A DNA stretch of 32,355 bases. Source: Oscillospiraceae bacterium. GTDB lineage: Bacteria; Bacillota; Clostridia; Oscillospirales; Ruminococcaceae. The position numbers and the translations under genes are program-made. Positions 10,346-32,355 of the stretch are shown here, piece after piece. The notes under the pieces are model-generated. The model was given only the letters and a program-made list of their open reading frames with translations. It was not told the DNA's origin and searched no databases. Location of the stretch: contig JAFTXQ010000017.1 of the NCBI GenBank assembly GCA_017461565.1, forward strand, positions 1 through 32,355. Direction: 5' to 3'. The first letter of the stretch is position 1; every line of letters starts with the position of its first letter.

Positions 10346-12094
10346 TTATGCGTTGTCCTGCAGGGCATCATAGCCCTCCTCGGAAGTTCTGATCTTTACC
10401 ACATTCTCCACATTATAAACAAATATCTTTCCGTCTCCGATATTGCCTGTATAGAGTGCATTCTTTGCAGCGTCAACAACTTCACTTACAGGTATCTTGC
10501 ACACAACCACCTCGATCTTGACCTTGGGCAACAACCGAGGAGTTACCTTTACTCCACGGTAATATTCGGCAGAGCCTTTCTGCATACCGCAGCCCATAGT
10601 ATTAGTAACTGTCATTCCTGTTATTCCGATATCATACAGTGCATTCTTTAACGGCTCAAACCGTTCCATGCCGGTGATGATATCCACCTTTGTCATTTTT
10701 ACGCCGGCAGTATGAACATTACCCGAGAGAGCACCGTCAGTGTTGTTGTACTCAACAGGAACAGCCTTCTCAATAGGGACGGCTGGAATGACGTTCGCAA
10801 CCTCGCGCTCCTTGCCCGAGCTTGTTGTTTCGATATGAGTAGAGGGGATAAAGTCAGCGTAGGAGGAAGCAAGACCGTGCTCTGTAAGGTCAAGGCCGAC
10901 AACCTCCTCATGACGGGATACTCTCAGACCGATCGTTTTCTTGATAACAAGGAACACCAGTGTCATCGTAACAGCTGTCCAGGCTGTAACAGTGAGAACT
11001 CCCAACAGCTGCTTGCCGAAAAGCTCAAAGCCGCCGCCGTAAAACAGACCGGTCAGTCCGCTCTCGGGAGCTGTGGACGTAGCGAAAAGTCCTACAGCGA
11101 GTGTGCCCCATATACCGTTTAGGAAATGGACTGCGACCGCACCGACAGGATCATCAACTTTGAGCACATTGTCAAGGAACCATACGCCAAAAATGACCAG
11201 CAGTCCAGATACTAAGCCTACGATAGCTGCACCGGCAGCATCCATGACATCACAGCCTGCTGTTATACCTACAAGACCTGCAAGTGATGCATTCAGGCAC
11301 ATGGAAACATCGGGCTTGCCATATTTCAGCCATGTGAAGATCATGCACACTACTGTTGCGACAGCGGGAGCAATGGTTGTAGTCAGGAAAATAGAACCGA
11401 GCTGAGGTCCTGTTGTGGCAGCGGCACCGTTGAAGCCGTACCAGCCAAACCAGAGGATAAAACAGCCGAGAGCACCTAAGGTGAGTGAATGTCCCGGAAT
11501 AGCCACCGGCTTTTTGTCCTTTGTGAATTTGCCTATTCTCGGTCCTACTATAGCAGCACCAATAAGAGCTGTAACACCGCCTACAAGATGGATTGCGCAG
11601 GAACCTGCGAAATCATGGAAGCCCATCTGAGCCAGCCATCCGCTGCCCCAAATCCAATGTGCCTCAACGGGATAGACAACAAGACTGATTATAGCTGAAT
11701 AAATGCAGTAGGAAAGGAACTTTGTCCTTTCTGCCATTGCACCGGAAACGATAGTAGCTGCTGTTGCACAGAATACCAGATTGAATACGAAGTTCGGCCA
11801 ATCAAACGCTCCGTAATCTGTAAACAGATCGAATGTCGGAATGCCTATAAAGCCACCGATATCCTCGCCGAACATCAGCCCGAAGCCAAGCACAGCAAAA
11901 ACCACTGTACCGATGCAGAAATCCATCAGGTTTTTCATGATGATATTGCCTGCATTCTTGGCTCTGGTGAAGCCTGTTTCCACCATTGCAAAGCCCGCCT
12001 GCATGAAGAAAACGAGCGCTGCACCGATAAGGAACCATATACCGAATACTTCGGCGTTGACCTGTTCCGTTACCTGCATCATAAGGTCTGTCAT
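10346..12094 (-). CDS. amtB-glnK: Ammonium transporter fused to a P-II (GlnK) domain
   Basis: This 582-aa protein joins an Amt channel to its own P-II regulator. Residues about 1-410 form the 11-helix Amt domain, with pore His169 (IHLVGG) and His323 (HFLNGIWG). A linker of about 55 residues, rich in Thr, Ser and Val, leads to a full P-II domain (about 467-582) with the B-loop TGNIGDGKIFV for ATP/2-oxoglutarate sensing. The C-terminus of Amt is cytosolic, so the topology fits P-II docking. The T-loop has YYRGVK: the Arg that plugs the pore in AmtB-GlnK complexes is present (Arg513), but the position of E. coli Tyr51 is Val517, so uridylylation is not expected. The start is the second of two close ATGs, because AAAGGG is too near the first (12100). 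Confidence 0.96.
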   Translation of the reverse strand: MTDLMMQVTEQVNAEVFGIWFLIGAALVFFMQAGFAMVETGFTRAKNAGNIIMKNLMDFCIGTVVFAVLGFGLMFGEDIGGFIGIPTFDLFTDYGAFDWPNFVFNLVFCATAATIVSGAMAERTKFLSYCIYSAIISLVVYPVEAHWIWGSGWLAQMGFHDFAGSCAIHLVGGVTALIGAAIVGPRIGKFTKDKKPVAIPGHSLTLGALGCFILWFGWYGFNGAAATTGPQLGSIFLTTTIAPAVATVVCMIFTWLKYGKPDVSMCLNASLAGLVGITAGCDVMDAAGAAIVGLVSGLLVIFGVWFLDNVLKVDDPVGAVAVHFLNGIWGTLAVGLFATSTAPESGLTGLFYGGGFELFGKQLLGVLTVTAWTAVTMTLVFLVIKKTIGLRVSRHEEVVGLDLTEHGLASSYADFIPSTHIETTSSGKEREVANVIPAVPIEKAVPVEYNNTDGALSGNVHTAGVKMTKVDIITGMERFEPLKNALYDIGITGMTVTNTMGCGMQKGSAEYYRGVKVTPRLLPKVKIEVVVCKIPVSEVVDAAKNALYTGNIGDGKIFVYNVENVVKIRTSEEGYDALQDNA

Positions 12095-12126
12095 AATCAT
12101 ACACCCTTTCTTTGTTCAGGGGTAGT

Positions 12127-12169: not shown

Positions 12170-13594
12170 TTATCTATGTATCTTTTGTTCAAATTTATTT
12201 TTCTGCGGCGCTTTTGTTATTTCTATAGGATATTTTCCGCTGAAGCAGCCGTTGCATATTCCAAGTCTGCAGTCTTCGGCAATTTCAGAGGTGGCCTCTA
12301 TGGAGAGGTATGCCAGCGAGTCTGCGCCGATAACTCGTGCTATATCCTCTGTGTTATCATAACGGCAAGCGATAAGATCGTCTTCGCTGTCGATATCTGT
12401 GCCGAAATAACAGGAGTGTCTGAACGGGGGAGAGGATACTCTCATGTGCACCTCTTTCGCACCGGCTTCCCGCAACAGCTGTACGATGCGAGCGCAGGTA
12501 GTACCTCTGACTATAGAGTCATCCACGAGTACGACTCGCTTGCCATTTACAGTTTCCTTTATGACGCTCAGCTTTATATTTACTGCGTCTTCACGACTGT
12601 GCTGTTCGGGTAGGATAAAGCTTCTGCCGATGTATTTATTCTTAACAAAACCGATGCCATAGGGTATGCCGCTTTCTTTGGCATAGCCCATTGCCGCGTC
12701 TAGGCCTGAATCGGGAACCCCGATAACCACATCTGCCGCAACTGCGCTGTCCTTTGCGAGATATTGTCCTGCCCGTAGCCTTGCATGATGTACCGATGCT
12801 CCGTCAATTACTGAGTCGGGACGGGCGAAGTAGATATATTCGAACACACACAGACTACCCTTGCCACAGGTGTTCGTGCGGATGCTCCTTACGCCGCTTT
12901 TGTCTATGACTGCGATCTCACCAGGCATGATATCACGGACAAGTTCTCCTCCTGCCGCCTTAATAGCAGCGGATTCCGAGGCAATGATATACGCACCGTC
13001 ATTGCGTTTACCCATAACAAGCGGGCGGAATCCATTAGGGTCTCGGAAAGCTATCAGCTTTGTGGCGGTCATAAGCACACAAGAATATGCGCCTTTCAGC
13101 TTGCTCATTATCTTGCTTACAGCTTCCTCAGTGGAGGACGATTTCAAGCGCTCGGATACTATCTCATAGGCTATCGCTTCGGTATCGGAGGTGCTATGGA
13201 AGATGGCTCCCGAAAGTTCAAAACCTCTGCGGAGCTCCTCGGCATTCACGAGGTTTCCGTTATGTGCAAGTGCCAGATTTCCTTTGATGTGACGTATTGT
13301 AAGAGGCTGTATATTGTTCAGACCTCCACCGCCCGTTGTAGAATATCTGACGTGTCCCACGGCAATATTACCCTCGCCCAGCGACTTTATCGTATTCTCG
13401 TCAAAGACTTCAGATACCAGACCCTCACCCTTTTTTGAGGAAAAAACACCGTCGTCGCAGACTGCGATACCGCATGCCTCCTGACCTCTGTGCTGAAGCG
13501 CATAGAGCCCCAGATATACTGTTCCCGCTACATTTGCTGTTCTGTCGGAATAAATGCCGAACACGCCACACTCTTCGTGTATGTTATTTGTCAT
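12170..13594 (-). CDS. purF: Amidophosphoribosyltransferase
   Basis: PurF makes phosphoribosylamine from PRPP and glutamine, the committed step of purine synthesis. The 474-aa protein is of the B. subtilis type: an 8-residue propeptide precedes nucleophile Cys9 (HEECGVFGIYS). The PRPP loop is VVLVDDSIVRGTT. Four cysteines positioned as the known [4Fe-4S] ligands are visible (SLCVFEYIYF, HSCYFG and the pair in LGICNGC). Such enzymes are matured by propeptide removal and are oxygen-sensitive, fitting an anaerobe. The ribosome-binding site is weak (no AGGAGG before the ATG), so translation may depend on coupling to glnA, which ends 24 bp upstream. Confidence 0.98.
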   Translation of the reverse strand: MTNNIHEECGVFGIYSDRTANVAGTVYLGLYALQHRGQEACGIAVCDDGVFSSKKGEGLVSEVFDENTIKSLGEGNIAVGHVRYSTTGGGGLNNIQPLTIRHIKGNLALAHNGNLVNAEELRRGFELSGAIFHSTSDTEAIAYEIVSERLKSSSTEEAVSKIMSKLKGAYSCVLMTATKLIAFRDPNGFRPLVMGKRNDGAYIIASESAAIKAAGGELVRDIMPGEIAVIDKSGVRSIRTNTCGKGSLCVFEYIYFARPDSVIDGASVHHARLRAGQYLAKDSAVAADVVIGVPDSGLDAAMGYAKESGIPYGIGFVKNKYIGRSFILPEQHSREDAVNIKLSVIKETVNGKRVVLVDDSIVRGTTCARIVQLLREAGAKEVHMRVSSPPFRHSCYFGTDIDSEDDLIACRYDNTEDIARVIGADSLAYLSIEATSEIAEDCRLGICNGCFSGKYPIEITKAPQKNKFEQKIHR

Positions 13595-13618
13595 CGCTGT
13601 TCATCTGTATGCTATGCA

Positions 13619-15712
13619 TCATCTTACACCGAACAGCAGCTCTCCGTAGGAGGGATACGGCCAGTACTCTGCGGCTGTAAGCATCTCGGCGCTGTCTACG
13701 GCAGCTCTCAGTTCATCCATAGCGGCAAGTACCTCGTCCTTATAAAATGCTGCCAGCACCGTAATATCAAAGATGCGCTTAGTCTCCTCCAGCTTTGCCT
13801 CCAGCGTTTTAAGTGCGCTGAACGCCTTGCCTGAAAGAGCCGACAGCTCCTTTGCTGTCTCTGCCTCATAGCTTAAGTCCACATCCGAGCCGATCGCCTG
13901 CTTTGCACCCGCAGAAGCGGAAAGAGAAGCTATGTACTCGCTGATTGCAGGAAGAATATCCTTGCGAGCCATATCCACCATAGTCAGAGCCTCGATATTT
14001 ACTACCTTGCAGTAGTTCTCAAGATTGATCTCGTAGCGAGATCGGATCTCCACCTCGGTGAATACCTTATGAGAGGTGAACAGCTTGATATTCTTATCAT
14101 GGATGAAATAAGGAAGCGCATCGGGAGTGGTCTTGAGATTGAGCAGACCTCTCTTCTCGGCCTCGGCTACCCACGAATCATCATATCCGTTTCCGTTGAA
14201 GATAACATGCTGATGCTCAACGATAACTCTCTTTACAAGATCGTGCAGAGCGGTATCGAAATCTGCTGCATTTTCAAGCTCATCGGCAAACTGCTTAAGC
14301 TCTTCAGCTACTGCGGTGTTAAGTACGGTGTTGCAGCCCGAGATCGAGTTTGCGGAGCCCAGCATTCTGAACTCGAACTTATTACCTGTGAACGCAAAGG
14401 GAGAAGTACGGTTTCTGTCTGTACTGTCCTTAGGGAATTTAGGCAGCACATGAACACCTACCCTCAAAAGTTCCTTTTCCTTTGCACCGTAAGGAGTGTC
14501 GGTCTCTATAGCCTGAAGCACCTCAGAAAGCTCCGAGCCGATAAACATCGACACGATGGCGGGAGGAGCCTCGTTTGCTCCGAGTCTGTGGTCGTTTCCC
14601 GCAGAAGCTACGGAGATTCTAAGCAGATCCTGATAATCGTCAACTGCCTTAATAACTGCACACAGGAACAGCAGGAACTGCGCATTCTCATAGGGGGTTT
14701 CGCCCGGTTCGAGAAGGTTTACGCCTGTATTTGTGCTGATCGACCAGTTGTTGTGCTTGCCGGAGCCGTTCACGCCGTCAAAGGGCTTCTCGTGTAGCAG
14801 ACATACAAGTCCGTGCTTCTTTGCAACCTTCTGCATGATCTCCATTGTAAGCTGGTTGTGATCGGCGGAGATGTTAGTGGTAGCGAAAATGGGAGCAAGC
14901 TCATGTTGTGAAGGAGCGACCTCGTTATGTTCGGTCTTTGCAAGGATCCCCAGTTTCCACAGCTCCTCGTTAAGCTCGTTCATATATGCCTGAACTCTAG
15001 GCTTGATGACACCGAAATAGTGGTCGTCTAACTCCTGTCCTTTAGGTGGCTTTGCGCCGAAAAGCGTCCTGCCTGTATAGATAAGGTCCTTGCGCTTATC
15101 GTACATTTCTTTGTCGATAAGAAAATATTCCTGCTCAGGACCTACTGTGGTCTTTACAGAAGTAACATCATCATTTCCAAAGAGCTTCAGCACCCTGAGC
15201 GCCTGCTTATTTATGGCTTCCATTGAGCGCAGCAGCGGTGTCTTTTTGTCAAGCGCTTCACCGCCGTAGGAGCAGAATGCTGTCGGAATGCAGAGAACGC
15301 CATCTTTGATGAATGCAAATGAAGTGGGATCCCACGCAGTGTAGCCTCTTGCTTCGAATGTTGCTCTCAGTCCGCCGGAGGGAAAGCTGGAAGCGTCAGG
15401 CTCGCCCTGAATGAGCTCCTTGCCCGAAAACTCCATAATAACTCTGCCGTCATTATTCGGGCTGATAAAGCTATCGTGCTTCTCTGCGGTGATACCTGTC
15501 ATCGGCTGAAACCAGTGGGTGTAGTGGGTAGCGCCTTTTTCGATTGCCCAGTCCTTGATGGCATTGGCTACCACACCAGCCGCAGACGGTTCAAGACGCT
15601 TACCGTTATTGATTGCTGCCTGAAGCTGCTTGAAGGTATCCTTTGGAAGCCGTGCTTTCATTGCGCTTTCGTTGAATACATTTTCACCGAAATAGTCCGA
15701 AACGTTTCTCAT
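13619..15712 (-). CDS. glnA: Type III glutamine synthetase (GlnN)
   Basis: It makes glutamine from glutamate, ammonia and ATP. At 697 aa it is the large type III (GSIII) form known from Bacteroides, Ruminococcus, cyanobacteria and some clostridia, not the 440-470 aa type I. Visible motifs are [23 protein letters not shown] with following [26 protein letters not shown] and [20 protein letters not shown]. The start is the ATG at 15712 (MRNVSDYFG), supported by AAGAAGGAA at good spacing; an in-frame ATG 33 bp upstream lacks a site. It is the first gene of the leftward operon, read from a consensus sigma-A promoter with an upstream inverted repeat, and is divergent from glutamate synthase, so GS and GOGAT share one control region. 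Confidence 0.98.
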
Positions 15713-15788
15713 AGATGTTCCTTCTTTCGTATATTTATATTGCAAACGATCGCAGGTTATTGTCGATGCCTCTGTCGTTTACACTTGC

Positions 15789-15817
15789 ATTATATCACCG
15801 TGTTAATTTCTTGTCAA
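15789..15817 (-). promoter_or_regulatory. Consensus sigma-A promoter of glnA
   Basis: Read on -, TTGACA (15812-15817) and TATAAT (15789-15794) are both perfect consensus hexamers with the ideal 17-bp spacer. The expected start of transcription is near 15782, about 70 nt before the glnA ATG. Confidence 0.93.
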
Positions 15818-15825
15818 GGTGTTTT

Positions 15826-15851
15826 TGCAAGTTTTCATTCAATTTCTTGCA
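15826..15851 (-). promoter_or_regulatory. Operator A: TGCAAG-N14-CTTGCA upstream of the glnA promoter
   Basis: A perfect 6-bp inverted repeat with half-site starts 20 bp apart, ending 8 bp before the glnA -35 box and centred near -57. The same sequence, at the same distance, precedes the glt promoter. The position suits an activator dimer. The regulator is unknown. It does not match GlnR/TnrA (TGTNA-N7-TNACA) or NtcA (GTA-N8-TAC) sites. Confidence 0.7.
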
Positions 15852-15875
15852 TTTGTCATATTTTGAGCAATTGAT

Positions 15876-15903
15876 TTGACGATAATTTGTAAAATGTTAT
15901 AAA
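15876..15903 (+). promoter_or_regulatory. Possible distal glt promoter
   Basis: TTGACG (15876-15881) and TATAAA (15898-15903) with a 16-bp spacer. It would give a leader of about 190 nt for the glt operon. AT-rich surroundings make chance matches likely. Confidence 0.25.
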
Positions 15904-15928
15904 ATTTAAGATTGCATATCCGTTTTCT

Positions 15929-15954
15929 TGAAAGTGAATTGTGCATATCTTTCA
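15929..15954 (+). promoter_or_regulatory. Operator B candidate: TGAAAG-N14-CTTTCA
   Basis: A perfect inverted repeat with the same geometry as operators A and C, differing by one symmetric change (C to A in each half-site). It lies 9 bp upstream of a weak + promoter candidate. It may be a lower-affinity site of the same regulator. Confidence 0.4.
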
Positions 15955-15963
15955 TAATCATAT

Positions 15964-15992
15964 TTGAAAATCGGTTAAAACATAGATAAAAT
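15964..15992 (+). promoter_or_regulatory. Possible second glt promoter next to operator B
   Basis: TTGAAA (15964-15969), a 17-bp spacer and TAAAAT (15987-15992), placed 9 bp after operator B. It mimics the layout of the main glt promoter but with weaker hexamers. Confidence 0.3.
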
Positions 15993-16001
15993 ACACCAAA
16001 A

Positions 16002-16027
16002 TGCAAGTTGTTTCGAAAAAACTTGCG
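16002..16027 (+). promoter_or_regulatory. Operator C: TGCAAG-N14-CTTGCG upstream of the glt promoter
   Basis: An inverted repeat with one terminal mismatch, ending 8 bp before the glt -35 box and centred near -57. Arm sequence, 14-bp spacer and distance to -35 equal those of operator A at glnA. It also sits in a longer near-palindrome (16003-16026) around TTCGAA. Confidence 0.7.
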
Positions 16028-16035
16028 CAAAAGCA

Positions 16036-16065
16036 TTGACAAAAAAGTAACCAAAGTGCTATCAT
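16036..16065 (+). promoter_or_regulatory. Sigma-A promoter of the glt operon
   Basis: TTGACA (16036-16041) and TATCAT (16060-16065) with an 18-bp spacer. Transcription should start near 16072, about 30 nt before the first ATG. The less ideal -10 and spacer compared with the glnA promoter suggest a need for activation. Confidence 0.85.
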
Positions 16066-16102
16066 GTTTTCAGAAAAAGCAGAAAAGCAAGGAGGTAACG
16101 TT

Positions 16103-17215
16103 ATGCTTTTAGAGGGCCAAGTGCGAATTCCTGCAGGATGTGCCATTTCAGGCTTCATCAGCAGAGATGGAAACAGGATCAATGGTAGTGAGATCGTCAA
16201 GTCGATCTCGTATATGCATGACCGTTCCAACGGTCTCGGCGGTGGATTTGCAGGATATGGCATATATCCCGAATATAAGGATCATTATGCATTTCATATC
16301 TTTTATGATTCAAACGAGGTACGTGAACAGACCGAGAAGTTTCTCGATCGTCATTTTGATGTGATAAACCTCAGCCGTATTCCTATAAGAAGAATCCCTT
16401 CTATAACCAATGAGCCGCTGATATGGAGATATTTCGTTGACCCGCGCCCCACGAAGATAGCGTCCTCGCAGCTTGATGAAAAGGAATATGTAGCCAAGTG
16501 TGTCATCAGGATAAACAACGATATAAAGGGTGCATATGTTTTTTCCAGCGGAAAAAATATGGGAGTATTCAAAGCGGTTGGATATCCCGAGGATGTTGGC
16601 CAATTCTACCGCCTTGACGAATATGACGGATATGCGTGGACAGCTCATGGAAGATATCCCACGAACACACCCGGCTGGTGGGGCGGAGCACATCCTTTCT
16701 CGCTGCTGGATTACTCTATCGTCCATAACGGTGAGATATCCTCTTATGACGCTAACCGCCGTTTCATTGAGATGTTCGGATACAAATGCACCTTGCTGAC
16801 CGATACAGAGGTCATCACATATATTTTTGACTGGCTCCACAGAAAACAGCAGCTTAGTCTTGAGGATATCGCCTCGGTCATCGCTGCACCTTTCTGGACG
16901 AAGATAGATGAGATCGGTCGCACTGACCCCGAACAGGCAGAAAAGCTGAGATATCTGCGCAACGCCCTTTCGGGACTGCTTATCACCGGTCCGTTTTCTA
17001 TAATTCTTGGCTACACAGGCGGAATTATGGCATTGAACGATCGACTGAAGCTGCGCTCTATGGTCGTTGCGGAAAAAGACGACAGGGTATATATCGCCAG
17101 CGAGGAGTGCGCCATCAGAGCCATCTGTCCCGATTGTGGAAACGTATGGTCCCCAAAGGGTGGAGAGCCCGTTGTGGTAACGCTTAATGAGGAGGGCAGA
17201 AAGAGATGTCTGTAA
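16103..17215 (+). CDS. Glutamate synthase, glutamine amidotransferase subunit
   Basis: This 370-aa class II amidotransferase corresponds to the N-terminal domain of classical GOGAT, here a separate protein as in archaeal-type split enzymes. It releases ammonia from glutamine for the FMN subunit encoded next. The start is the ATG at 16103, fixed by AAGGAGG upstream; an ATG at 16064 is inside the promoter -10 region and cannot be used. The likely nucleophile is Cys13 in IPAGCAISGFIS, so removal of about 12 residues would be needed to expose it, as in PurF-type enzymes. Other family motifs are GHxRYPTN-like TAHGRYPTNTPG, SIVHNGEI and LTDTEVI. It overlaps the next gene by 10 bp. Confidence 0.92.
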   Translation: MLLEGQVRIPAGCAISGFISRDGNRINGSEIVKSISYMHDRSNGLGGGFAGYGIYPEYKDHYAFHIFYDSNEVREQTEKFLDRHFDVINLSRIPIRRIPSITNEPLIWRYFVDPRPTKIASSQLDEKEYVAKCVIRINNDIKGAYVFSSGKNMGVFKAVGYPEDVGQFYRLDEYDGYAWTAHGRYPTNTPGWWGGAHPFSLLDYSIVHNGEISSYDANRRFIEMFGYKCTLLTDTEVITYIFDWLHRKQQLSLEDIASVIAAPFWTKIDEIGRTDPEQAEKLRYLRNALSGLLITGPFSIILGYTGGIMALNDRLKLRSMVVAEKDDRVYIASEECAIRAICPDCGNVWSPKGGEPVVVTLNEEGRKRCL

Positions 17216-18711
17216 ACTTTTTTCCTGCGGAATTTGAGATAATCCGCAATTATGATAAATGTATCGGCTGTCGTGCCTGTGAACGTCAATGCGCAAACGA
17301 GGTACACTATTACGATTCGGACTACAGCAAAATGTTGGCGCATGAAAACAAATGTGTAGATTGCCAACGCTGCGTCTGTCTTTGCCCTACAGGAGCACTG
17401 AAGATACAGCCGAATGCAAATGCTTTCAGACAAAGCGCAAATTATACTCAGCAGCTTATGCTTGAAAACTATCGCCAGGCAGAGAGCGGCGGTGTGCTGC
17501 TATCCTCTATGGGAACTCCCAAGGATTACCCCGTGTACTGGGATAAGATCCTGCTGAACGCATCTCAGGTAACGAACCCGCCTATCGACCCATTGCGCGA
17601 GCCTATGGAAACAAAGGTATTTCTCGGCAAAAAGCCGATCCCTATCAAAAAGAAAGCAGACGGCAGCATAGACACACATATAGAGCCTCACCTTGAGCTT
17701 GACATCCCCATTATGTTCTCGGCGATGTCCTACGGCTCTATCTCAAAGAATGCCCACGAAGCCCTTGCACGAGCCGCAGAGGAGCTAGGAACCTACTATA
17801 ACACAGGCGAGGGTGGTCTTCATAAGGATTTTTACAAATACGGAGATAACACCATCGTTCAGGTAGCATCGGGACGTTTTGGCGTATTCAAGGGATATCT
17901 TGACACAGGCGCCGCAATCGAGATCAAAATGGGTCAGGGCGCAAAGCCTGGTATTGGTGGACATCTCCCCGGCGAGAAGATCGCGGAGGACGTTTCCCGT
18001 ACAAGAATGATACCTATGGGAACGGACGCTATCTCACCTGCTCCCCATCATGATATATATTCTATTGAGGATTTAAGACAGCTTATTTTTTCGCTTAAAG
18101 AAGCTACCGAGTACAAAAAGCCTATCATCGTGAAGATAGCCGCAGTACATAATGTAGCAGCTATTGCCTCAGGCATTGCAAGATCAGGTGCGGATATCAT
18201 CGCGATAGACGGTTTCAGAGGTGGAACAGGTGCCGCTCCCACAAGAATAAGAGATAATGTGGGAATCCCGATCGAGCTTGCTCTTGCAGCAGTTGACGGC
18301 AGACTCCGCCACGAGGGCATCAGAAACGAAGTGTCTATTGTAGCAGCCGGTTCTATCAGAAGCTCCTCCGATGCAGTTAAGGCAATCGCTCTCGGAGCAG
18401 ACGCAGTGTATATCGCAACCCCTGCACTGCTGGCTATGGGATGTCACCTTTGCAGAAGCTGCCACAGCGGTAGGTGTAACTGGGGTATTGCAACGCAGCG
18501 CCCCGAGCTTGTAAAGCGGCTTAATCCCGATGTTGCATACAAGAGGCTTGTAAACCTTGTCAACGCATGGAACCATGAGATAAAAGAGATACTGGGCGGC
18601 ATGGGAATAAACTCTATCGAAGCACTCAGAGGTAACCGCCTTATGCTGAGAGGCATCGGTCTTACACAGAAAGAGCTTGATATTCTCGGAATAGCTCACG
18701 CCGGCGAATAA
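17206..18711 (+). CDS. gltB: Glutamate synthase, FMN/iron-sulfur synthase subunit
   Basis: This 501-aa subunit makes glutamate from 2-oxoglutarate and ammonia. An N-terminal ferredoxin domain carries two [4Fe-4S] motifs: C19, C22, C25, C29 and C50, C53, C56, C60. The FMN-binding synthase barrel (about 130-480) has SYGSISKNAHEAL, KMGQGAKPGIGG and DGFRGGTGAAP. The [3Fe-4S] ligands C413, C419 and C424 follow the C-x5-C-x4-C pattern of glutamate synthases. The central linker domain of bacterial GOGAT is absent and the amidotransferase and GXGXG domains are encoded separately. The fused ferredoxin domain suggests electrons arrive through iron-sulfur clusters from the neighbouring subunits. A 10-bp overlap with the upstream gene indicates coupled translation. 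Confidence 0.95.
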   Translation: MSVNFFPAEFEIIRNYDKCIGCRACERQCANEVHYYDSDYSKMLAHENKCVDCQRCVCLCPTGALKIQPNANAFRQSANYTQQLMLENYRQAESGGVLLSSMGTPKDYPVYWDKILLNASQVTNPPIDPLREPMETKVFLGKKPIPIKKKADGSIDTHIEPHLELDIPIMFSAMSYGSISKNAHEALARAAEELGTYYNTGEGGLHKDFYKYGDNTIVQVASGRFGVFKGYLDTGAAIEIKMGQGAKPGIGGHLPGEKIAEDVSRTRMIPMGTDAISPAPHHDIYSIEDLRQLIFSLKEATEYKKPIIVKIAAVHNVAAIASGIARSGADIIAIDGFRGGTGAAPTRIRDNVGIPIELALAAVDGRLRHEGIRNEVSIVAAGSIRSSSDAVKAIALGADAVYIATPALLAMGCHLCRSCHSGRCNWGIATQRPELVKRLNPDVAYKRLVNLVNAWNHEIKEILGGMGINSIEALRGNRLMLRGIGLTQKELDILGIAHAGE

Positions 18712-18730: not shown

Positions 18731-19180
18731 ATGAAAAAGGTATATGTGAATGAGGAACGCTGTCTTGGCTGTCACTTATGCGAGTTCTACTGTTCATTTG
18801 CGGGCGGCGGCGAAACGGATATGGCAAAGGCGTTCAAGCTCGGCAGAGTGGTCGCTCCTCGTGTGCGCATCGAGGAGAGCAAGGATATAAACTTCGCTGT
18901 TCAGTGCAGGCACTGCGAAGACCCCCTATGCGTAAAGAGCTGTATTGCGGGCGCACTCACCAAAAAGAACGGCATGGTCGAGATCGACAAAGCGAAGTGC
19001 GTTGGTTGCTACACCTGCGTGCTGGTATGTCCCTACGGCTGTATAGCCCCTGATAAGAAATCAGGAGGCAAGACCGTCACAAAATGTGAGCTTTGCCTTA
19101 ATTCCGCAGCGGGAGAGCCAGCATGTGTCAAGGGCTGCCCGAACAAGGCTATAGTATACGAGGAGAGGGGCGAGCAGTAA
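18731..19180 (+). CDS. Four-cluster ferredoxin-like electron transfer subunit
   Basis: This 149-aa protein of the HycB/DmsB type has sixteen cysteines in four [4Fe-4S] motifs: C11/C14/C17/C21, then groups in CRHCEDPLCVKSC, CVGCYTCVLVCP and CELCLNSAAGEPACVKGCP. It lies between the synthase barrel gene and a pyridine-nucleotide flavoprotein, so it most likely carries electrons between them within the glutamate synthase complex. Its stop codon overlaps the next start (TAATG). It could serve other partners, but the tight packing argues for this complex. Confidence 0.9.
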   Translation: MKKVYVNEERCLGCHLCEFYCSFAGGGETDMAKAFKLGRVVAPRVRIEESKDINFAVQCRHCEDPLCVKSCIAGALTKKNGMVEIDKAKCVGCYTCVLVCPYGCIAPDKKSGGKTVTKCELCLNSAAGEPACVKGCPNKAIVYEERGEQ

Positions 19181-20414
19181 TGAAATATGTAATTATAGGA
19201 AACTCCGCCGCAGGTATCGGCGCAGTTCAGGGAATCCGTGAACTTGACAAAGACGGAGATATCACCATGATCTCGGACGAGAACTATCATACATATTCAC
19301 GTCCTCTGATCTCCTACTGGTTGAAGGGCGATGTTACCGAAGAAGGCATGAAATACCGCCCGAATGAGTTTTACACAGAAAACAAAGTGAACGCTCTGCT
19401 AGGAAAAAAAGTCGTTTCTATCGATAAGAAAAACAAGACTGTACTTATGGATGACGCCAGCGTAACAGAATACGACAAGCTGCTGGTTGCTACAGGCTCT
19501 GACCCGTTTGTACCGCAGCTTGAGGGGCTTGACAAAGTAAAGAACAAATTCACCTTTATGAAGATGGACGATGTTAGAGCAGTAAGAGAGCGGCTTAGCA
19601 AAAACTCAAAGGTACTTATTATCGGAGCGGGTCTTATCGGATTAAAAGCAGCAGAAGCAATGGTAAGGTTCACAAATAACATCACTGTGATAGATCTATC
19701 GGAACGTATCCTACCTGCTGTGCTTAATGAAGAAGCTTCACACATCATGAAGCACCATATTGAGACTACAGGGGTGCGTTTTGTACTCGGTACAACCGTA
19801 AAGGAATTTTCCGAAAACACTGCAACCCTGACCAATGGAGATAGTATAGATTTCGATATACTTATCCTTGCTGTCGGAGTTCGTCCCAATACCGAACTTA
19901 TCGATGCTATCGGCGGAAAGGTCGATAGAGGAATAGTTACTGATGACACCCAGGCAGTAAAGGGGTTTTCCGATATATATGCCGCAGGCGACTGCACAAA
20001 AAGCCATGACATCACAAGCAATACGGACAAGATGATCGCAATACTTCCCAATGCGTTTATGCAAGGAAATGTTGCAGGAAAGAATATGGCAGGCGGTGTG
20101 GCACATTATACTAATGCGTTTCCGATGAATGCCGCAGGCTTTTTCGGCCTGCATATAATTACTGCAGGCTCTTATTCGGGCGAGGAACACACCGCGATAA
20201 GCGAAAGTGGTTACAAAAATCTGTTCATTGCAGACAACAAGCTTAAGGGTTTTATTTTAATGGGAGATATGATAAATAATGCAGGTATCTATACCTCGCT
20301 TGTGAGAGAACAGACACCACTCAATGAGGTAGATCTCGCGTTGCTGCTGGAAAAGCCTGCACTGATGGCATTTCCTGCAGAATACAGAAAAGAAAAATTG
20401 GGAGGGCAGAGATA

Positions 20415-20415
<1 letters not shown>
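19180..20415 (+). CDS. NAD(P)/FAD-dependent oxidoreductase of the glutamate synthase complex
   Basis: This 411-aa flavoprotein probably feeds electrons from NAD(P)H into the glutamate synthase in place of the usual GltD. The start is the ATG at 19180 (MKYVIIGNSAAGIGAVQGI), overlapping the preceding TAA; GAGGAGAGGGG is its ribosome-binding site. An ATG 57 bp upstream lies within the ferredoxin gene. The N-terminal FAD fold has GNSAAG, the NAD(P) fold has GAGLIGLKAAEA (about 148-159), and the second FAD motif is DIYAAGDC. It belongs to the NADH-dependent nitrite/rubredoxin reductase-like group and lacks the N-terminal ferredoxin domain of GltD; that role is taken by the preceding gene. Confidence 0.93.
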
Positions 20416-23479
<3,064 letters not shown>

Positions 23480-31684: not shown

Positions 31685-32355
31685 CTATTTACCTTTTCTG
31701 TACTTCCCCGGTGTGATTTGGTATTTTTTCTTAAAGCTTCGATTGAAATATGAAAGATTGTCAAATCCACAAGCACAGGCGATTTCAAGAATATTGCCAT
31801 CTGTTGCACGGAGCATATTCGCTGCTGTTTCAAGCCGATAGTCATTAAGATAGTTAATAAAGCTCACACCCATACTTTCCTTGAAGAACTTCATAAAATA
31901 GGATTTGCTGTAAAAGCAAAGCTCTGCTACTTCTTCAACGGTGATACTTTCTGAATAATGCTGTTCCACATAAGAAAGTATGGTTTTTATTTTGTCAATA
32001 TTCTTCTGTGAAATTTGAGAAAATGTTTCGCCGATTTCTGACACAAGACGGTGAAACATTAGATAAAGGTAACCTTTTACAGCTATCTGATAGCCCGTAC
32101 TTTTTTTATCACACAGCTTATCGATTCTTTGTATATATTCAGAAATGCCGCTCTCAATCATCTTGTCAGCACAAATCAATGGGCAAATTGATCTTACGGA
32201 AGAAATCAGCGGGGAAATAAATTGCTCCCAACACAGATCACTTCCTGTTGCTTTCAGCATAGATGGTCTGAACAGAATATTTTCGTATTCCATTGTGCTG
32301 TTTTCAAGCTGCGAAATTGAGTGAAGCTGTCCTGACATTATGAAAACGGCATCAC
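31685..32355 (-). CDS. AraC-family transcriptional regulator, 5' end outside the window
   Basis: At least 222 residues are encoded and the frame stays open to the window edge. An ATG at 32338 exists, but the codons before it read DAVFI and join naturally to MSGQLHSI as part of an AraC-type cupin sensor domain, so the true start is beyond 32355. The C-terminal part is a complete tandem HTH domain: the first motif near SITVEEVAELCFYSKSYFMK, then GNILEIACACGFDNLSYF and the typical tail FKKKYQITPGKYRK. It is a DNA-binding regulator of the sugar or stress-responsive AraC type. Its ligand and targets are unknown. It is convergent with nadE and separated by the terminator, so a link to nitrogen control is unproven. 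Confidence 0.93.
   Translation of the reverse strand, partial: DAVFIMSGQLHSISQLENSTMEYENILFRPSMLKATGSDLCWEQFISPLISSVRSICPLICADKMIESGISEYIQRIDKLCDKKSTGYQIAVKGYLYLMFHRLVSEIGETFSQISQKNIDKIKTILSYVEQHYSESITVEEVAELCFYSKSYFMKFFKESMGVSFINYLNDYRLETAANMLRATDGNILEIACACGFDNLSYFNRSFKKKYQITPGKYRKGK

Follow-up and report, generated by a model that had tools for sequence, protein, structure and literature searches.

A conserved operator between glnN and glt and a putative nitrogen-assimilation regulon in Ruminococcus-like bacteria, with an RpiR-family protein as candidate regulator

Described regulators and the glnN-glt region

GlnR and TnrA of Bacillus act through one palindromic operator placed before the glutamine synthetase, glutamate synthase and ammonium transporter genes and activate or repress according to its position, and the system described here appears to share these traits; what sets it apart is the operator, which we take to be TGTNA-N7-TNACA in Bacillus and which reads TGMAAG-N14-CTTGCA here, with arms two helical turns apart. 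Compared by eye, the arms found in the present locus match neither that operator nor GTA-N8-TAC, which we take to be the operator of NtcA. The known members of the RpiR/MurR family presumably control sugar or sialic-acid genes, and its sugar-phosphate binders carry SxSGxT in the SIS loop, whereas the likely targets of the candidate regulator considered below are nitrogen genes and its SIS loop reads SFPRYA/S; the HTH_6 plus SIS architecture is common to both (HexR, NanR and MurR; structures 8ju9, 4ivn and 7en5 among others). PucR-type activators such as AdeR, PutR and GabR likewise use inverted repeats, but theirs are of 24, 17 and 21 bp and serve local catabolic genes (PMC7652997, in excerpt). 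ANTAR antitermination concerns the same nitrogen genes as the present operators (PMC3369931, in excerpt); unlike them it works on RNA after initiation, and for that reason does not explain operators in DNA. The operator class is that of an ordinary palindromic activator or repressor site; what is new, as far as could be seen, is that this motif, this regulon and the likely RpiR regulator occur together. Among the best-ranked papers of the open-access literature searched, none was seen to describe the operator or an RpiR nitrogen regulator.

The window, by which we mean the whole stretch of 32,355 nucleotides that was analysed, carries two divergent gene runs (Table 1). The glnN promoter on the minus strand consists of TGCAAGAAATTGAATGAAAACTTGCA, 8 bp, TTGACA, N17 and TATAAT, and the glt promoter on the plus strand of TGCAAGTTGTTTCGAAAAAACTTGCG, 8 bp, TTGACA, N18 and TATCAT. 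Both palindromes, which share the form TGCAAG-N14-CTTGCR, lie where the initial annotation had placed them, each ending exactly 8 bp before TTGACA; its identification of a glutamine synthetase holds as well, while its label glnA does not, the gene being that of a type III enzyme, glnN. Counted from a -10 box whose first base is taken as -12, the operators are centred at -56.5 (glnN) and at -57.5 (glt, where the core spacer is 18). The palindrome lying between them has as its left arm TGAAAG, the usual left arm of glt operators in relatives. An Rfam scan of positions 13000-18000 gave no match up to E = 1.

Table 1. Features of the window
Feature	Position	Strand	Basis or remark
amt, ammonium transporter fused to a P-II domain at the C-terminus, in the glnN gene run	10346..12100	-	family models
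purF-like gene, downstream of glnN on the same strand	12170..13594	-	open reading frame list; name presumed
glnN, type III glutamine synthetase	13619..15712	-	GSIII_N and Gln-synt_C-ter
glnN core promoter TTGACA-N17-TATAAT, 8 bp downstream of operator	15789..15817	-	read from sequence
glnN-promoter operator TGCAAG-N14-CTTGCA	15826..15851	-	read from sequence; identical arms in G007 and G009
possible third, weaker site TGAAAG-N14-CTTTCA	15929..15954	.	10.8 bits; both arms identical in G000, G007 and G009
glt-promoter operator TGCAAG-N14-CTTGCG	16002..16027	+	read from sequence; N14 in G007, N13 in G009; conserved in glt promoters of the genus
glt core promoter TTGACA-N18-TATCAT, 8 bp downstream of operator	16036..16065	+	read from sequence
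glt, amidotransferase part of glutamate synthase	16103..17215	+	GATase_2
glutamate synthase core subunit	17206..18711	+	Glu_synthase, 470.8 bits
ferredoxin-like, FAD/NAD oxidoreductase and GXGXG-like genes of the glt run	18731..21140	+	weak or sub-cut-off family matches

The two runs that diverge from the glnN-glt region (5409-31337) include many glutamine-using genes, namely purF, guaA, gatAB, pyrG, purC, purA, purB, carAB and nadE, most of these names being presumed from the sequences. Towards the left contig end (3058-4734) lies a large open reading frame that we take to encode a serine recombinase, possibly the remnant of a mobile element; at the right end (31685-32338, minus strand) lies an AraC-type regulator gene, whose C-terminal DNA-binding region is the only part matched by the family models.

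Conservation of the operator across the genus

In the genome from which the window derives (G000, 2.19 Mb, 92.8% complete) the exact pattern TGCAAG-N14-CTTGCR occurs at three places, two of them in the window, and its reversed control at none, in line with the initial view that the arrangement is hard to explain by chance; the third copy (C16:122798) precedes an aspartate aminotransferase type Ic gene (aat; NF053594, 662 bits against a cut-off of 435). Allowing two mismatches makes the motif uninformative in the window, where ten matches compare with a shuffle mean of 7.05 and 25 of 100 shuffles reach ten, and leaves it saying little in the genome, with 111 matches against 62 for the reversed control (1.8-fold). 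Because the window also holds 190 perfect palindromes with 6-bp arms and gaps of 8-22, the evidence lies in conservation and not in the palindrome itself.

A count of TGCAAG-N(4-24)-CTTGCA in 43 genomes, which belong to one genus and are related, so that neither this count nor those that follow are of independent events, returned 308 occurrences, against 263 for the reversed control. At N14 alone there are 82 exact sites, compared with 23 for the reversed N14 control, seven of which come from one genome; the other gaps from 4 to 24 average 11.3 each, making N14 over-represented about 7-fold. (The 308 do not strictly contain all of the 82, since the wider count assigns a shorter gap to at least two of them, G003:C12 and G027:C53.) Of the 43 genomes, 37 have one or more exact N14 sites, and six have none.

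The surroundings of 75 of the 82 sites were read, which covers all but one site in G039 (its second) and the pairs of sites in G040, G041 and G042, and nitrogen genes lie downstream of 53 of them: aat in 26 cases, amt in 14, a glnN of the window type in three, glt in one, a second glnN in one, a glnQ-type ABC gene in three, ilvE and/or leuS in four, and a deaminase-like gene adjoining a PucR-type gene in one. The aat, glnN and glt genes were assigned by similarity to the copies of G000, whose own amt and aat rest on family models; glnQ, ilvE, leuS, the deaminase-like gene and the amt genes of relatives are names that we presume from their sequences. The remaining 22 sites, in coding regions or beside genes without a tie to nitrogen, were not counted as targets.

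The glt orthologs, most of them 73-76% identical, were identified independently of the motif. In all 30 with loci to read, CTTGCR ends 7-9 bp before TTGACA (8 bp in 23, 7 bp in four and 9 bp in three), and in 26 of them TGMAAG stands exactly 14 bp before that arm; the exceptions are an N13 gap in G009 (L341) and a left arm about one base off in L342-L344. The arms and the 8-bp spacing, on whose conservation the initial annotation had let its reading depend, do therefore recur in orthologous promoters. The core promoter is a perfect TTGACA-N17-TATAAT in 27 of the 30, the window and two near relatives having TTGACA-N18-TATCAT. A weight matrix built from 49 distinct exact sites, which include neither the glt loci L342-L368 nor the rpiR loci, gave at least 15 bits at N14 in 21 of the 27 glt orthologs outside the near clade when 350 bp were scored, or in 23 of 27 with 420 bp, while from none to two reached this score at other gaps and none in 20 rounds of block shuffles. 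As a background, four of 280 upstream stretches of open reading frames without an exact site reach 15 bits, one at L151 and three at L240/L241, all at loci that had been picked for their sites.

Only G000, G007 and G009 showed the divergent glnN-glt layout together with a near-identical glnN. The usual full-length glnN of the genus, of which G000 has a copy at C6:19798, is 61-65% identical to that of the window; its putative site precedes the gene by about 290 bp and is thus far from the promoter that the alignment shows, and 11 of 28 such sequences reach 15 bits at N14 compared with none at other gaps. The amt gene, which in the window sits within the glnN run, has an operator site of its own in relatives.

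Taken together, the over-representation of N14, the nitrogen-gene targets and the conserved layout of glt promoters lead us to regard the regulon operator as real, that is, as a set of putative operators of a nitrogen-assimilation regulon that is conserved across the genus. That glutamine synthetase and glutamate synthase are co-regulated through one putative operator is strongly supported by the recurrence of arms, N14 and 8-bp distance at glt orthologs, at the 14 amt promoters and at further nitrogen genes; the initial annotation was borne out on this point, and not in calling the regulator an activator, which is not established.

Further sites were noticed. In G003 a 28.9-bit site (L151:1236) lies upstream of an mfd-like open reading frame without a tie to nitrogen, and in G000 a 17.6-bit site (L241:1609-1634) lies 62 bp upstream of a gene that we take to be nfnA-like, followed by one presumably gltD/nfnB-like. 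One-mismatch sites occur in L004, L005 and L007, as well as in L008, there beside what we assume to be a prepilin-peptidase-like open reading frame. Many of the 14 amt promoters carry, in the 20 bp upstream of the operator and abutting it, another conserved inverted repeat that resembles TTTTGT...ACAAAA.

Operator position and the candidate regulator

The operator is not found at one position only. Its centre lies at -56.5 in 12 of the 14 amt promoters (-55.5 in the other two) and in all three glnN promoters of the window type, at -43.5 in 26 of 26 aat promoters, at -35.5 in three of three glnQ promoters, and at -77.5 or -76.5 in the three ilvE promoters measured. The positions -35.5, -56.5 and -77.5 are spaced by 21 bp, or about two turns, and the half-sites of the operator itself are 20 bp apart; aat is out of phase with this series, and there the right arm is itself the -35 box (TTGCAA). 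We infer from this geometry that one protein may act in two modes set by the position of its site. Activation would suit the fixed 8-bp spacing in glnN, glt and amt, and repression the way in which the site overlaps the -35 box at aat, rpiR and glnQ, whereas the perfect TTGACA/TATAAT cores of the amt promoters and of most glt promoters speak against the need for an activator; as to the direction of control, activation near -57 and repression on the -35 box, we regard the chances as even.

A candidate for the protein emerged among the weaker sites of G000, one of which, scoring 23.2 bits, immediately precedes an RpiR-family gene located outside the window (G000:C5:2973-3830), with the domains HTH_6 (PF01418, 57.9 bits; cut-off 28.3) and SIS (PF01380, 80.4 bits; cut-off 25). 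A single ortholog is present in 38 of the 43 genomes, including all 27 of high quality, and the five without it are under 90% complete. Within the genus, 21 of 29 rpiR promoters reach 15 bits at N14, as against 0-8 at other gaps and none of the shuffles (30 matches had loci to read, one having too little upstream sequence to be scored). The arms are more degenerate than at glt: CTTGMA lies on the -35 box in 27 of 30, and in 13 of 30 a left arm agreeing in at least four of six bases stands at N14 as well; in part of the genomes the site is centred at -43.5, with its right arm forming the -35 box. Among distant rpiR promoters one of 29 reaches 15 bits (L289), and L280 and L287 reach 7-8 bits with a layout that is comparable by eye.

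Of 50 genomes tested outside the genus, 28 carry an RpiR ortholog (43-58% identical), and glnN promoters score at least 10 bits in seven of these 28 compared with none of the 22 without one (Fisher p = 0.012), an association to be read in the light of the 50 loci having been picked from 80 so as to include visible sites, and of a threshold chosen afterwards; a rank test on the same loci is not significant (p = 0.065). Ruminococcus flavefaciens YAD2003 (L102) lacks both the ortholog and the site. The SIS loop is SFPRYA in the protein of G000 and SFPRYA/S in the alignment consensus of 57 orthologs, and the absence of the SxSGxT loop that we associate with sugar phosphates from these aligned orthologs bears on the ligand, family membership resting on the domains. 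The RpiR-family protein is probably, and with fair confidence, the binder of the operator, being the best candidate among the regulator families screened. A symmetric regulator, most likely this single protein, would recognise TGMAAG/CTTGCA half-sites spaced by 20 bp; from a position of about -57, adjoining RNA polymerase, it would most likely activate glnN, glt and amt, and it would most likely repress where its right arm forms the -35 box, as at aat and, in part of the genomes, at its own gene, and also at glnQ, where the spacer of the operator holds the -35 box. To this account as a whole, in which operators of a nitrogen regulon are read by RpiR and activate or repress by position, we assign a probability of about 0.6.

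The same regulon might instead work by repression only, nitrogen excess filling all sites so that upstream contacts of RNA polymerase are blocked at -57 and the -35 box is covered at -43 and -35. The constant placement of the site on the -35 box at aat and glnQ would suit such a scheme, as would the perfect core promoters at amt and in 27 of 30 glt promoters; it sits less easily with the ilvE sites at -77 and with an 8-bp distance that is nearly constant among the non-orthologous glt, amt and glnN promoters, which is stricter than a repressor needs, and we hold it to be a serious possibility on the doubtful side. Scarcely less credible, but a shade more doubtful, is that the operators are real and read by another DNA-binding protein, rpiR being one more target gene. 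Few regulator families were screened, and ANTAR (38 of 43 genomes) and HTH_30 proteins of the PucR/CdaR type (matched in 43 of 43, in 42 above the cut-off) are as widespread as RpiR; a PucR-type gene adjoins the site at L200, and an HTH_30 protein encoded upstream of an ftsEX-like pair (L217-L225; G000:C17:116321-116485) is unusually conserved, its HTH scoring the same 70.5 bits in 42 of 43 genomes. Against this protein stands the lack of a convincing site at its own gene, where nothing in L225-L235 exceeds 8.6 bits (five two-mismatch matches occur in L217-L235 and one in L215), and this CdaR-like regulator was set aside; moreover, PucR recognition helices are described as one turn apart (PMC11617747, in excerpt), and the operator arms are two turns apart. 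NrpR is excluded, as its NRD domain (PF01995) occurs in none of the 43 genomes, compared with two of 14 control genomes. That the palindromes arose by chance in an A+T-rich intergenic region is very improbable: the abundance of perfect palindromes in the window and the lack of enrichment of the two-mismatch motif there would allow it, but arms, spacer and promoter distance are conserved in many genomes and at several gene families.

A possible second tier and its meaning

Six-base loops with A at position 1 and G at position 4 have been described as recognition elements of ANTAR proteins and reported upstream of ammonium transporter, glutamine and glutamate synthase genes (PMC3369931, in excerpt). 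Conserved hairpins resembling these, with a six-base loop that has A at position 1 and G at position 4, occur in the amt leaders of relatives (L146-L209) and in the leaders of the second glnN (L311-L338), where the element reads GAAAC-loop-GTTTC and overlaps a hairpin resembling a terminator. Of the 43 genomes 38 have an ANTAR gene, and in 29 of the 38 this gene shares a contig with glt, at a distance of 4.5-6.4 kb; in G000 it is on C10, away from the window. A second, ANTAR-type tier of control probably acts on the RNA of amt and of the second glnN.

In the open-access literature searched we found no account of how ruminococcus-like fibre degraders control ammonia assimilation at the promoter; the operator now offers an exact bait together with a list of targets, and RpiR a single protein to test. 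The fullest form of our proposal is tentative, and we put it at slightly worse than even: that a master nitrogen regulator of the RpiR/SIS family, unrelated to GlnR, TnrA, NtcA, NtrC and NrpR, reads half-sites two turns apart as a position-dependent switch in Ruminococcus-like gut bacteria, with a ligand that differs from the classic sugar phosphates (or an amino sugar derived from glutamine), and forms the promoter tier above the ANTAR tier. If true, a family known for sugar control would run nitrogen metabolism in a large group of gut bacteria, paired with ANTAR antitermination in a two-tier circuit.
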